From positions 1 through 40,514 of the forward strand of contig CABVRO010000016.1 in NCBI GenBank assembly GCA_902500715.1: a stretch of DNA of 40,514 nucleotides. The letters are read 5' to 3'. The translations under genes were made by a program, and so were the position numbers. The notes under the pieces are model-generated. The model worked only from the letters and a program-made list of their open reading frames with translations, was not told where the DNA came from and did no database searches. This document shows positions 21,447-26,601 of the stretch, in pieces (the stretch's first letter is position 1; every line of letters starts with the position of its first letter). This DNA comes from an uncultured Nitrospira sp. (GTDB lineage Bacteria; Nitrospirota; Nitrospiria; Nitrospirales; Nitrospiraceae).

Positions 21447-22742
21447 TCAGCCGGAGCTCTGCAACCATCGCACGACTGCTTCACGCATCCGGACAGAAAG
21501 AAGCCATTTGGCGATAATCCGATGAAACGGTTTCAAACAGATGGCCAGCATACGAAGTCGTCGTTGAAACCGGAACCAGGGCAACGAACGGGTGAGCACC
21601 GCTGCTTCCGCACGACAGAGCGCAGCCCCCAATCTCCACCGCTCAAACCACGAATCTTTGAGGGTCATGTATAGAGCCTCTGCAGAATCTTCATGAATCC
21701 CATGACAAGGATTCTTCAACAGTTGCGTAGGCATCTTTCGAACGAGGATGGGGATGTCTGCATCTGCCTCTATCTCCTGAAGTATCGTCGGTGGGACGGC
21801 GGTATCGAGGAGGCTGTGAGCCACCGCCAGGCCGAGCAGGACCAACCGTCGACATCTCCACTCGTCTGCTTGAAACAGCACACGACTCCAATCTAAGGCC
21901 GGCCGCCGACGCACGAGCTCCGCCACATCGCAGACCCACTTCAACTGCTCCCAGGCATGTTTTGACCCATGCACGCAAAGAAGAATCAACAGATCCTCAG
22001 GACAGAGGCCCATCACCGATTTGGCTGGTAAGTGAACGGGTTTCAGTCTTTCCCAAAACACGCTCCGATCAAGCCGAAATCCGAAATGCCGGCGAGCCAT
22101 CACCCACTGAAGATCAACCGCAATAATGCTGTTTCGCCTCTGAAAAAAGTGGTACGGCTCCCCTGACTCCTCCCCGCTTCCCATGTCCTGGCTGGTCAGT
22201 TGATACCCCTGAGACCATAAGACCTTCCGAGCTTGAGGAATCGCTCCCTGCTCAACGATCAAATCGATATCCGCACATTCCCGTAAACCTAGATCGCCAT
22301 ACGCCGTCTGTGCAAGCGTGATGCCTTTAAAGGGAATCGCCGTCACCCCCTTAGCCGCCAACGCATCCAGTAAGGTCACGAGTTCTTTAGCCAACAAGCT
22401 ATTCAAAAGAGCGTTCGCTTGATTGTGCCGACGAAAAGCTTCGTGGATGGAAGAAGGCACGGCAGCCGGACAAATCGTGACAAGATTGCGATATACTAGC
22501 GGCGCCACGCCATGGGTTCTTGAGAGCTTCCAGACCAGCTCCCAATCAATTCCATCACAGGCCAAATCTGCTACTTCGACTCGAATAAACTCATTCATCG
22601 TCGTTCGCGCACAGAGTGCAAGTAATCGTCCCTCCGCATGCATGAGGGCCAAACCTGGCGCCGGCGTCATCCCCTTACGCGAGATACCTCCCAGACGAGA
22701 AGAGTTCCATTGTGCGACGGTGGACTTAGGACGCTGTCCCAT
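21447..22742 (-). CDS. Nucleotidyltransferase-family protein of the HprK/PqqD RiPP-like locus
   Basis: 431 residues; the first ~45 before ARTTMNEFIRVEVADL may be extra. It matches the nucleotidyltransferase group found with lasso-peptide and HPr-kinase-related cassettes: a helical lead (LVWKLSRTHGVAPLVYRNL), a helical block ending IPFKGITLAQTAYGDLG, then R-E-C-A-D-I-D-L-I-V with Asp158 and Asp160 as metal-binding carboxylates, and HGSKHAWEQLKWVCDVAEL. The family is thought to transfer nucleotidyl groups to small molecules or peptides; in lasso clusters a homologous gene accompanies the kinase. The start codon follows the kinase stop by one base, so the two are tightly coupled. Confidence 0.85.
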   Translation of the reverse strand: MGQRPKSTVAQWNSSRLGGISRKGMTPAPGLALMHAEGRLLALCARTTMNEFIRVEVADLACDGIDWELVWKLSRTHGVAPLVYRNLVTICPAAVPSSIHEAFRRHNQANALLNSLLAKELVTLLDALAAKGVTAIPFKGITLAQTAYGDLGLRECADIDLIVEQGAIPQARKVLWSQGYQLTSQDMGSGEESGEPYHFFQRRNSIIAVDLQWVMARRHFGFRLDRSVFWERLKPVHLPAKSVMGLCPEDLLILLCVHGSKHAWEQLKWVCDVAELVRRRPALDWSRVLFQADEWRCRRLVLLGLAVAHSLLDTAVPPTILQEIEADADIPILVRKMPTQLLKNPCHGIHEDSAEALYMTLKDSWFERWRLGAALCRAEAAVLTRSLPWFRFQRRLRMLAICLKPFHRIIAKWLLSVRMREAVVRWLQSSG

Positions 22743-22743
22743 G

Positions 22744-23784
22744 TCAGTTCTCTCTCCTTGCTTGCCGCTTCTCCAGAAGAGGCGTTACCAGCCATGGCAA
22801 CTCCAGGACATCGCGTCCGAAGTGGAGTCGATAACAGTCCGTTTGCTCGACCAGACGAACAAGTGCTTGAAACTCCTGGCGCGCTACCTCAGCGTCATAC
22901 ACGAGCAACGAATGCGGAAGGATCATCTCCAATGCCACCTTTTTGGGCAAGGGCTCCAGACAACTGTGTGAAGAATCGAGCACCTCGGGAAAGAGGATCA
23001 CGCTTGGCTCGCAAGGCTGGCCTAATGGCCCCGAATATATATCCTCAGCATGGAAATAGCGCTTAGGAACCCCTGCGTGAAGCACAGATGGCGGAGCCTC
23101 TCGCAGTTCAGGAAAGAACGATACGGTGTGATCGGTCACATTGATCTTGAGCGGATACGGGAGGATCTCCACACGCGTGCCACTGACCCGAAAGAACGGG
23201 TGATCGTCGGAGAGGTAACGATACCCTGCTCGCAGCAGGGATAGGAACGAGGTGGTTTTCCCCCGCCCACTGAAACCAGGAATCAACACCCCCTGCCCCT
23301 TGTGCTCCAGGGCAGTGGCATGAAACGTATACAATCCGCACCGCTTCAGAAGTTCCGTCATGGCAAAATGGACAAAACTCACCCGGATATCCGGCGCCAT
23401 GGCCTCCGGCCTCACCAGATAACCATGAGCAGCTTGCGAGGCTCCATCGATGACGACCAAACCTTGTTCATGAAAATCGGCAATCAATAGGCCGTTGTTT
23501 GAATATATGTCGCAGGACCATGTCCTCTTCCCATCAGGACCGATTACGAGGCCAGAGTCGCCATACAACAATTGCGCTGAACCGGAAATCCGGACCGGAA
23601 CATCCCCACGCCGCTCAATCGCGTCGAACTCCATCCGCATCGACGGAGCCACAACGGTGTCGCAGTGAAAGTGATGGAGTAACGCTTCAACGGAATGTGC
23701 CAACTCGGACGAATTGGTGGTGAATGTCATCTCTATGCCATGGACGGAGAGTAGAAGTTCCTTCATTGAAGACGCCATGAACAT
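22744..23784 (-). CDS. HPr kinase-related kinase (HprK-rel-A type)
   Basis: 346 residues. The kinase domain at about 145-250 has F-H-A-T-A-L-E, then the Walker A loop GFSGRGKTT at 170-178 and Y-L-S-D-D-H at 190-195, in the same order as HPr kinase/phosphorylase. The N-terminal 140 residues differ from true HprK. Related kinases occur in lasso clusters such as paeninodin, where they phosphorylate the precursor, and in the 'HPr-rel-A' cassette with PqqD and a nucleotidyltransferase. The ATG has AAGGAGAA upstream. It follows the precursor-like peptide gene by 115 nt, which holds a strong hairpin, and precedes the nucleotidyltransferase gene by one base. Confidence 0.87.
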   Translation of the reverse strand: MFMASSMKELLLSVHGIEMTFTTNSSELAHSVEALLHHFHCDTVVAPSMRMEFDAIERRGDVPVRISGSAQLLYGDSGLVIGPDGKRTWSCDIYSNNGLLIADFHEQGLVVIDGASQAAHGYLVRPEAMAPDIRVSFVHFAMTELLKRCGLYTFHATALEHKGQGVLIPGFSGRGKTTSFLSLLRAGYRYLSDDHPFFRVSGTRVEILPYPLKINVTDHTVSFFPELREAPPSVLHAGVPKRYFHAEDIYSGPLGQPCEPSVILFPEVLDSSHSCLEPLPKKVALEMILPHSLLVYDAEVARQEFQALVRLVEQTDCYRLHFGRDVLELPWLVTPLLEKRQARREN

Positions 23785-23840: not shown

Positions 23841-23871
23841 GAGCTGGCCGGTCTACGTAACCGGCCAGCTC
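23841..23871 (-). terminator. Perfect 12-bp hairpin between precursor peptide and kinase genes
   Basis: GAGCTGGCCGGT (23841-23852) and ACCGGCCAGCTC (23860-23871) pair perfectly over a 7-nt loop, itself containing the palindrome TACGTA. There is no T run on the minus strand, so complete termination is unlikely. A stable hairpin directly after a short precursor gene commonly protects the 5' message or partly stops transcription, giving more peptide mRNA than enzyme mRNA. Confidence 0.65.
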
Positions 23872-23899: not shown

Positions 23900-24013
23900 T
23901 TATACGGGTGTTCGATCCAGCACGCGGGACAACTGAATGGCCGTCACGTCGCGCAGCAACTCATGTTTCACGAGCGCCGGCTTGACGTATTCGGGTTTTA
24001 TCTGTCGCTCCAT
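23900..24013 (-). CDS. Lasso-type RiPP precursor-like peptide, 37 residues
   Basis: This gene is short and easily missed. ATG at 24011-24013, stop TAA at 23900-23902, with AAAGGAGGTGAG eight bases before the start. Residues 9-24 read YVKPALVKHELLRDVT. This fits the lasso leader pattern Y-x2-P-x-L-x3-G-x5-T in the positions of Tyr9, Pro12, Leu14 and Thr24; the Gly is replaced by Glu18. If, as in known lasso precursors, Thr is the penultimate leader residue, the core is IQLSRVLDRTPV, with Asp33 at core position 8, a standard macrolactam position. Ile at position 1 and a four-residue tail are unusual. Its start lies six bases after the stop of the PqqD-like gene, and its ribosome site overlaps that gene's end. 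Confidence 0.8.
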   Translation of the reverse strand: MERQIKPEYVKPALVKHELLRDVTAIQLSRVLDRTPV

Positions 24014-24019
24014 TCTCGC

Positions 24020-24337
24020 TCACCTCCTTTCTGTGTGAAGTAATCCTTCCTGCTCCAAAAGAACGATCAACTCCAACATATCGTCCTGAGCCTGCTGTTC
24101 AGACACGTCAAACCTGGCGCAGATTGTTGAGTGAATCTGCCGTAGCGACTGCTCCCCTTTGCACAAATCCCAGATGGTTGATCCGACAACATTAAGCGTG
24201 TAGTAGCGGCCGGAGCTCAGATTCAACAGCACACTTTCACCATCAAGAACCGTGCTGTGGACCTGTTCATCCTGCCTGGGAAACAGTTCTGACAATTCGA
24301 GCTGACGCTCACTCCACAGATGCACAGTGGCAGGCAT
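24020..24337 (-). CDS. PqqD-family peptide recognition protein (lasso B1-like)
   Basis: 105 residues, ATG with AGGAG eight bases upstream. The sequence has the PqqD/RRE pattern: V-L-D-G-E-S-V-L-L-N-L-S-S-G-R-Y-Y-T-L-N-V-V-G-S-T-I-W-D-L near 31-58 followed by a helical C-terminus (FDVSEQQAQDDMLELIVLLEQEGLL). These winged helices bind leader peptides; in lasso systems the B1 protein binds the Y-x2-P leader motif, which the adjacent peptide has. The N-terminal ~25 residues are extra. It is the first gene of the pqqD-like, peptide, kinase, nucleotidyltransferase group. Confidence 0.9.
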   Translation of the reverse strand: MPATVHLWSERQLELSELFPRQDEQVHSTVLDGESVLLNLSSGRYYTLNVVGSTIWDLCKGEQSLRQIHSTICARFDVSEQQAQDDMLELIVLLEQEGLLHTERR

Positions 24338-24662: not shown

Positions 24663-25103
24663 TCAGGAAATGCGAGATGATTGAGCACTTGAAGAAACCA
24701 GGGATTGCGGGAAGGTAACCGTCACCGTAAACGATTGCCAGTAGGAGGACGGCTCAAGAAACACATGACCATCGAGCACCAGCCATGCGTGTCCCTCCAA
24801 CTGCTGATTCAGCTTCAACACTCCACATTTGAATTGAACAGGAAGGCCGGCACGGCGGGCGAAAAAAAACAGCGCTAACGCTCGAGGAAAACAATTTCCC
24901 TTCGGATTGTATGGAAACAGCGCCAGCCACCGATCCACATAATAGGCCACGCCTTCCATCGCGTGCTCATCCGGATCGGCTGAAAGCTCGCATGATAACC
25001 AGCCAAGCAACCGCCTGAGACTCGTCAGGCGAGACGCGATGCGAACCCCAACGACCACAACACCAGTGGCAACGATCACTCGATATTTCCGGACCAGGGA
25101 CAT
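24663..25103 (-). CDS. Lasso peptide biosynthesis B2-like transglutaminase-fold protease
   Basis: 146 residues from the ATG at 25101-25103; a TTG three codons earlier is possible and neither has a clear ribosome site. A hydrophobic segment at about 9-22 precedes the catalytic domain. GNCFPRALALFFFARRAGLP places the nucleophile Cys at 71 and G-H-A-W-L-V-L-D-G-H-V-F the His at 105 with Asp111 nearby, the plan of lasso B2 leader peptidases. In lasso systems B2 cuts the leader after B1 has bound it. The gene lies 67 nt after purF and 325 nt before the PqqD-like gene, on the same strand. Confidence 0.88.
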   Translation of the reverse strand: MSLVRKYRVIVATGVVVVGVRIASRLTSLRRLLGWLSCELSADPDEHAMEGVAYYVDRWLALFPYNPKGNCFPRALALFFFARRAGLPVQFKCGVLKLNQQLEGHAWLVLDGHVFLEPSSYWQSFTVTVTFPQSLVSSSAQSSRIS

Positions 25104-25170
25104 GCCAATCAATCTAACAAGGCGGAGGAGAAAGTCCAGACGATCCTATGAACCGGCGAGGACAACGAGG

Positions 25171-26601
25171 TCAGCGTGGAGCTTCAAAGAGCCCAAGTTG
25201 GAGTTCTTCAGCACGGGTAAAGGAGATAGGGTATCGTTCGGTAAAGCAGGCATCGCAGTAGTGCCCCGGAAGGCCGGGAGCCGCCCTCACCATGCCCTCC
25301 AGGCTCAAGTAGGCGAGGCTGTCCGCAGTGATGTATTTGCGAATCTCTTCGGTGGTGTGACTGGCCGCGATCAATTCTTTCTTGGTCGGGGTATCGATGC
25401 CATAAAAACAGGGCGACACGATCGGCGGAGAACTTATCCGCATATGCACTTCTTTGGCTCCGGCATGACGCAGCATCTTGACGATTTTTCGGCTCGTGGT
25501 TCCCCGAACTAACGAATCGTCTACTACAACGACGCGTTTCCCTTCGAGGACTTCGGGAACGGCATTGAGCTTCACCTTCACCCCGAAGTGACGAATTGAC
25601 TGCTCCGGCTCAATGAAGGTCCGACCTACATAATGATTTCGAATCAGTCCCGTCTCGAACGGAAACCCAGATCCCTCGGAATACCCCAATGCCGCCGGCA
25701 CCCCTGAATCCGGCACGGGAATCACGATGTCTGCATCAACCTGCGATTCTTTCGCCAATTGCCGTCCGAATGCTTTCCGGATGGAATAGACGGCTTTGCC
25801 TCCAAAAATACGGCTATCAGGACGGGCAAAGTAGACATATTCAAACACACACATGGCCGGCTTGGTTTGAGCGAATGGCTTATAACTGGTGACGCCCTGA
25901 TGATCCAGTACCACCAACTCTCCCGGTTCGATCTCCCTTACATATTCGGCATCCAACAGATCGAACGCGCAACTTTCGGAGGCCACTATCCAGGCGTCAC
26001 GAAACCGTCCCAGGCACAGGGGGCGAAATCCATGGGGATCGCGCGCGGCGACAATGCCCTGATCGGTCATCAGAACCACTGAAAATGCGCCGCGAACCTG
26101 GGTGAGCGAATCGATGACCCGGTCCAGCAGCGTATCCGCCCGCGAATGAGCGATGAGATGGATGATGACTTCCGTGTCGGACGTCGATTGAAAAATAGCG
26201 CCGTAGGCTTCCAGTTCACTGCGAAGCATGGTGGCATTGATCAAATTCCCGTTGTGCGCCACGGCCAGGTTGCCGAAGGCAAAATTGACACTCAAAGGCT
26301 GCACATTCTTGAGGCCCGCCCCGCCCGCAGTGGAATAGCGATTGTGCCCGATCGCCATCGTGCCGGGCAGACGTGCCAAAGCCTGTTGCGAAAAGATATC
26401 CGCGACAAGGCCCTGCCCCTTTTCGACATAAAACTGTTCGCCGTCATTGGAGATAATGCCGGAAGCTTCCTGTCCGCGATGTTGCAAGGCGTAAAGACCA
26501 AGGTAGGCGAGGTTCGCGGCTTCTTTATGGCCGTAGATACCGAACACGGCGCATTCGTCGTGGAACTTATCGGAAGAAATCAGCGGGCTTTCGTTGGCCA
26601 T
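25171..26601 (-). CDS. purF: Amidophosphoribosyltransferase
   Basis: 476 residues, normal for PurF. First step of purine synthesis: glutamine plus PRPP gives phosphoribosylamine. A short propeptide ends before Cys17 in H-D-E-C-A-V-F-G, the glutaminase nucleophile, followed by HRGQEASGI and the NTn pattern HNGNLINA. The PRPP loop [14 protein letters not shown] lies near residue 370. Cysteines in [21 protein letters not shown] and HYCDACF match the Fe-S ligands of the Bacillus-type enzyme, so this PurF is of the clostridial/Bacillus, processed and oxygen-sensitive type. It lies 12 nt downstream of purL. Confidence 0.95.

Follow-up and report, generated by a model that had tools for sequence, protein, structure and literature searches.

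The window, by which we mean the whole stretch of DNA analysed here, comprises 40,514 nucleotides from an uncultured Nitrospira sp. On its minus strand, a gene at 25171-26601, which we take to be purF from its sequence and which has purine genes upstream of it (Pfam), is followed in order by B2, B1, A, K, N, a gene for a TlpA-like redoxin and a gene for a metallo-beta-lactamase-fold protein. The order purF-B2-B1-A-K-N is syntenic across the genus. The features are:

24663-25112, minus strand: B2, a lasso-type transglutaminase-fold leader peptidase (NF033537, 53 bits against a cut-off of 33)
24020-24337, minus strand: B1, a discrete PqqD-type RiPP recognition element (RRE; Pfam PqqD, 65 bits)
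24023-24030, minus strand: the ribosome site of A, AAAGGAGG, overlapping the last codons of B1
23900-24013, minus strand: A, a precursor peptide gene of 37 amino acids, with leader 1-25 and predicted core 26-37 (IQLSRVLDRTPV), which holds the invariant Ser29
23841-23871, minus strand: a hairpin of 13 bp with a 5-base loop and no T-run, just downstream of A
22744-23784, minus strand: K, an HprK-related peptide kinase (TIGR04352, 54.7 bits, below the cut-off of 200)
21447-22742, minus strand: N, an NTP_transf_5 nucleotidyltransferase (Pfam, 226.6 bits)

Gene A starts with ATG and its translation is MERQIKPEYVKPALVKHELLRDVTAIQLSRVLDRTPV. A preliminary description of this DNA had given it a ribosome site at eight-base spacing. 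The site is present (AAAGGAGGTGAG), and the spacing to the ATG is nine bases from the end of GGAGG, or eight if the T is counted with the site. The bases AGG AGG TGA (24020-24028) serve both as the Shine-Dalgarno core of A and as the end of B1 (Arg-Arg-stop), so translation of the two genes is probably coupled, to judge from this overlap. The same motif is also seen before the B1-adjacent precursor in relatives. The core was set by the T(-2) rule, with T24 as position -2, and the peptide has no C-terminal Ser.

The 37-codon frame had been read as a precursor gene with a lasso-type leader pattern formed by Tyr9, Pro12, Leu14 and Thr24. We compared loci of relatives, 40 regions at first and then 11 more. 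Frame, leader and ribosome site recur beside the PqqD-like gene, and 33 of the 40 loci hold a leader-bearing precursor, often in tandem. Eleven residues are invariant in 26 distinct peptides (Y9, P12, L14, H17, E18, R21, D22, V23, T24, A25 and Ser29), and the 27th distinct precursor (G018) agrees, save that its residue 14 is Val. The earlier reading of the leader is thus borne out, and both the frame and the leader residues are conserved in relatives. Selection was estimated on 27 precursor copies from 20 loci, which give 26 distinct peptides and include one locus (L051) of the neighbouring genus g9. The dN/dS was 0.04 for the leader, 0.14 for core positions 1-5 and 0.60 for the tail with all 27 copies, and 0.06, 0.18 and 0.76 with one copy per locus. 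These substitution patterns indicate that the leader and core 1-5 are under strong purifying selection and that the tails vary almost neutrally. Such conservation confirms the 37-codon frame as a real RiPP precursor gene.

Ser29 is found in 27 of 27 distinct precursors, and its codon changes are all synonymous (TCC, TCT, TCG). Since the codon varies, the residue itself is what selection keeps. Of the modification targets put forward in the preliminary description, Ser29 is the best candidate; Thr35, named there as an alternative, varies among relatives.

A hairpin is also a regular feature of the locus. An uninterrupted stem of at least 9 bp follows the last precursor at 17 of 20 loci, as against 190 of 4000 shuffles, and none of seven gaps between tandem precursors has such a stem. 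The arms vary between loci yet remain complementary, so that place and fold are conserved. The hairpin may protect or attenuate the message and so leave A in excess over K.

We next consider the partner genes. B1 scored 60 bits against NF033536, under the cut-off of 80, and it matches both lasso chaperone models, each below its cut-off. Its matches in the PDB are TbiB1, PbaB1 and LppB. Residue D86 of B1 is kept in 48 of 51 rows and, with the PDB alignment registered by hand, falls on LppB D70, which bonds the leader tyrosine. In B2, C74 is conserved in 31 of 32 rows and H108 and E120 in 31 of 31; these three are presumably the catalytic triad. A sequence search of the PDB with B2 returned no match. 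Over 39 rows of K, H155 is conserved in 38 and G170, K176, T177, D193 and D194 in all, at a constant offset of +7 from H148, G163, K169, S170, D186 and D187, which were found important in BsfK (PMC10368454). K matches HPrK structures, and its AlphaFold2 model (pLDDT 87.9) has PEP carboxykinases (PEPCK) as best structural match. The P-loop fold is common to HPr kinases and PEP carboxykinases. The score of K is far under the curated kinase-family cut-offs, and its substrate is suggested by its context. The model of N (85.4) weakly resembles MenT1, FKRP and ANT(2'').

The YxxPxL leader, the Thr at -2 and the discrete B1 and B2 are all features of lasso peptides, and the preliminary description had put Asp at position 8 of a predicted lasso core. 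Asp33 (core 8) is indeed present in the window peptide and its close relatives, but in only part of the relatives at large. An acid at core 7-9 occurs in 11 of 27 distinct precursors and no acid occurs anywhere in the core of 10 of the 27, while Ser29 is conserved throughout. Core position 1 of lasso peptides is usually Gly, Ala, Ser or Cys; here it is mostly Ile. A search of the window peptide for lasso leaders, proposed earlier as a check, gave no leader model match in NCBIfam. Nor was a lasso cyclase, an ATP-grasp, an ABC exporter or a fatty-acid hydroxylase found at the window locus or at 23 loci of the genus and g9, three of which (L047, L054, L060) end at contig edges. A cyclase encoded elsewhere could in principle close an Ile1-Asp8 macrolactam in trans. 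However, the source genome, which is 93.5% complete (the genomes being mostly metagenome assemblies), has no match over cut-off to a lasso cyclase, and TIGR01536 places all five of its full-length asparagine synthases with the ordinary enzymes. A cyclase acting in trans was thus rejected as a candidate. We regard a true lasso peptide as highly improbable and do not file A as one, because the cyclase and a conserved ring acid both fail. Separately, the only asparagine synthase near a locus of the family (L079) was tried and rejected; its nearest models are XrtA-type amidotransferase and ordinary asparagine synthase.

Two described systems are closer. In Bradymonas sediminis, BsfK phosphorylates Ser3 of its precursor with help from BsfB1 (PMC10368454). 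The bsf cluster shares with the window the genes A, B1, B2, K and N, the catalytic residues of K and the leader spacing of BsfA, with Y(-17), P(-14), L(-12) and position -2 in the same places. BsfK acts on an N-terminal core Ser, and by analogy we propose that K may do the same. The bsf cluster also has a cyclase C and an exporter D, whereas the Nitrospira locus has neither; position -2 is Ile in bsf and Thr in the window, and the ring acid is unconserved in Nitrospira.

LPPs are linear RiPPs that are bound by an RRE and polyphosphorylated on core Ser3 by the HprK-type LppK (Popov et al. 2026, PMC13381572), and that paper describes them as restricted to Bacillota. They have in common with the Nitrospira locus a discrete RRE, an HprK-like kinase, an NTP transferase, no macrolactam cyclase, and one to three precursors with a fixed leader, a variable tail and a Ser a few residues past Thr. 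The LPP motif YxxPxVLxHQxIxFETxxS agrees with the window leader at P+3, V/L+5, H+8, I/L+11 and T+15 from Tyr and differs at Q, F, E and the position of Ser, which lies at T+5 in Nitrospira and at T+3 in LPPs. The peptidase of LPPs is the SpI-like LppS, and Nitrospira has the transglutaminase-type B2 instead. LPP clusters carry an MsbA-like exporter, unlike the genus of the window, and have a core of 45 residues, against about 12 in Nitrospira. LPPs show patchy transfer in Bacillota; the present system occupies one fixed locus in Nitrospirota. Because an SpI peptidase and an exporter are absent, the locus does not encode an LPP by the definition of PMC13381572. Paeninodin and pseudomycoidin share B1, B2, an HPr-type kinase and a nucleotidyltransferase with the window, but they have a cyclase and bear their phosphate on a C-terminal Ser, both of which are lacking here; paeninodins also have a WxxPxL leader where the window peptide has YxxPxL.

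The gene content, the synteny, the conservation, the intact catalytic residues and the lack of a cyclase, an ATP-grasp and an exporter can be read directly from the sequences. We think it likely that A gives rise to a linear phosphopeptide RiPP, modified on Ser29 and free of rings. What we say of Ser29 phosphorylation, of cleavage after Ala25, of the action of N and of the fate and function of the product is prediction. The discrete RRE B1 would bind the YxxPxL leader. K, recruited to the bound precursor, would add one or more phosphates to Ser29 (core Ser4). N may then attach a sugar-phosphate or a nucleotide to the Ser29 phosphate. For comparison, PsmN is described as hexosylating a phosphorylated peptide (PMC8498205). 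B2, to which B1 would present the precursor, is predicted to cut after Ala25 and so to release IQLSRVLDRTPV carrying a modified Ser4. Because the cyclase is absent, the core would stay linear. The calculated [M+H]+ of this core is 1396.827, or 1476.793 with one phosphate and 1556.760 with two; a cut after Thr24 would instead leave 1467.864, or 1547.831 with one phosphate.

Several observations favour such a linear phosphopeptide: the conserved frame and leader, the invariance of Ser29, the BsfK residues in K, a leader in bsf spacing and LPP register, and the failure to find a cyclase, an ATP-grasp, an exporter orthologue or an SpI peptidase (TIGR02228, the archaeal-type signal peptidase model, had no match in the source genome). 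Other observations fit it less well. The Ser is at core 4 (or 5), whereas BsfA and LppA have it at core 3; the scores of K fall far short of the curated thresholds for the named kinase families; and no exporter is present, unlike in LPP clusters. Moreover, 8 of 29 genomes of the genus have no intact A, yet N is intact in all 8, which is unlike what a purely A-dedicated N would predict.

The exporter bears on where the product would act. The best match in the source genome to the exporter of sister genera has 30% identity and lies elsewhere, and full-length matches in the genus reach at most 31%, versus 73-87% among the sister-genus loci. The lack of an exporter orthologue, the fixed chromosomal place and an HPrK-type kinase would all suit an HPr-like intracellular phospho-carrier or signal that K phosphorylates reversibly and B1 senses, with cleavage being secondary. 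We consider this unlikely, given that B2 is retained alongside in most loci with its Cys and His conserved and that nothing ties the locus to a sugar uptake system.

How widespread is the locus? Of 175 genomes in the family, 88 carry a B1 relative, and within the genus 23 of 29 do. When 395 genomes of the phylum were searched with a profile built on 22 precursors, 48 gave a match; 47 of these fall in the family, and the 48th (G396) belongs to another family of the order. A leader pattern search of a named collection returned 38 loci, and the title of each names Nitrospira, Nitrospiraceae or Nitrospirae. The precursor of Candidatus Nitrospira defluvii (FP929003.1, A at about 1340135-1340248) is identical to that of the window over 36 residues; its core has Ala as last residue, with calculated masses of 1368.796 and, phosphorylated, 1448.762. 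In G396 (L139, L140, L141), related precursors have a leader ending in RDLTA or RDLTT and cores with Ser and Cys, and B2, an ABC exporter, B1 and a kinase are scattered over separate contigs.

Intact A is present in 20 of the 29 genomes of the genus, and sister genera also carry leader-bearing precursors. Of the other nine genomes, one (G036) has a contig that ends in K, and eight have lost A or hold it in decayed form. A is frameshifted in G031 and G039; pieces of B2 and K remain in G037, together with N; only N is kept in G030 and G043. G023, G032 and G041 keep B1 and N, and a search of these three for a different precursor found only apparent decayed remains of A, as judged by eye. Such losses, together with short cores and almost neutral tails, are what one would expect of a relic whose ring-forming enzymes and exporter are gone and which drifts without making anything useful. 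This we doubt: the leader and core 1-5 are under strong purifying selection, the catalytic residues of K, B1 and B2 are conserved over tens of rows, and second precursor copies retain the same motif.

N is intact at six loci where A, K and B2 are lost (L057, L059, L061, L135, L136, L137); in G030, G037 and G043, B1 is lost too and N is still intact. N may thus have a second role. The K tree groups the genus and g9 in a single clade with support of 100/99, separate from the rest. This tree is in line with the purF tree, though it has long, unsure branches and disagrees with it at some forks. Together with the fixed place of the locus, this accord of gene trees is easier to explain by descent with loss than by recent transfer, and the inheritance beside purF appears to be vertical.

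The clusters of sister genera differ in their enzymes. At 17 loci of other genera, 12 have two ATP-grasp genes in the same region and 11 have an ABC exporter. The ATP-grasp genes are similar to the TIGR04187 and MvdC/MvdD models, and the precursors have the same leader and different cores. By eye, a Ser lies 3-5 residues past Thr in 18 of 19 precursors whose leader ends in T-A (TAGQSGYN, TAQSSGNN) and in 7 of 17 whose leader ends in T-G, the kind found with ATP-grasp genes. Lasso-type B1/B2 and leader are combined with an ATP-grasp pair in L064 (3516-10395), L065, L066 and others, and clusters of this type also hold fatty-acid hydroxylase-like proteins, an HprK-type kinase and a nucleotidyltransferase. 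They are possibly an undescribed graspetide group.

Graspetides carry side-chain ester or amide rings made by ATP-grasp ligases, and the two such genes beside the same B1/A/K/N set in sister genera raise the question of whether A is a graspetide precursor. We give this almost no credence. MvdC/MvdD-type ligases are missing from the source genome, TIGR04187 is matched neither in that genome nor at the genus locus, and where it is matched in the genus, in 4 genomes out of 29, the matches all lie elsewhere, one of them at only E 7e-4. In G022, a gene resembling ATP-grasp peptide maturases lies apart from the locus (L080; TIGR04187, 256 bits, under the cut-off).

Our preferred reading of the locus is a linear phosphopeptide system of Nitrospirota that is LPP-like but processed by B2. 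A literature search limited to one collection found no paper linking Nitrospira to such a system. A bolder and tentative possibility is that the locus by purF is, across Nitrospiraceae, a phospho-graspetide hybrid that joins leader, RRE, B2, kinase and N with an ATP-grasp pair. The genus would then have a cut-down, five-gene, exporter-less version. Its short linear phosphopeptide would stay inside the cell and serve as a signal or phosphate carrier, and the system would be a new RiPP class, similar in kind to LPPs but outside Bacillota, and inherited like a core gene.

Taken as a linear phosphopeptide gene, A would be the missing substrate gene for a kinase, RRE and peptidase operon of nitrite oxidisers, including Candidatus Nitrospira defluvii. 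The locus would represent a lasso-like pathway that has a B2 peptidase and lacks a cyclase, and on this reading it would extend linear phosphorylated RiPPs past Bacillota. The precise prediction that it yields is phosphorylation of Ser29. The sister-genus clusters, in which the same leader meets ATP-grasp enzymes, may offer a series for studying how the chemistry applied to the core is exchanged between RiPP classes and the leader machinery stays the same.
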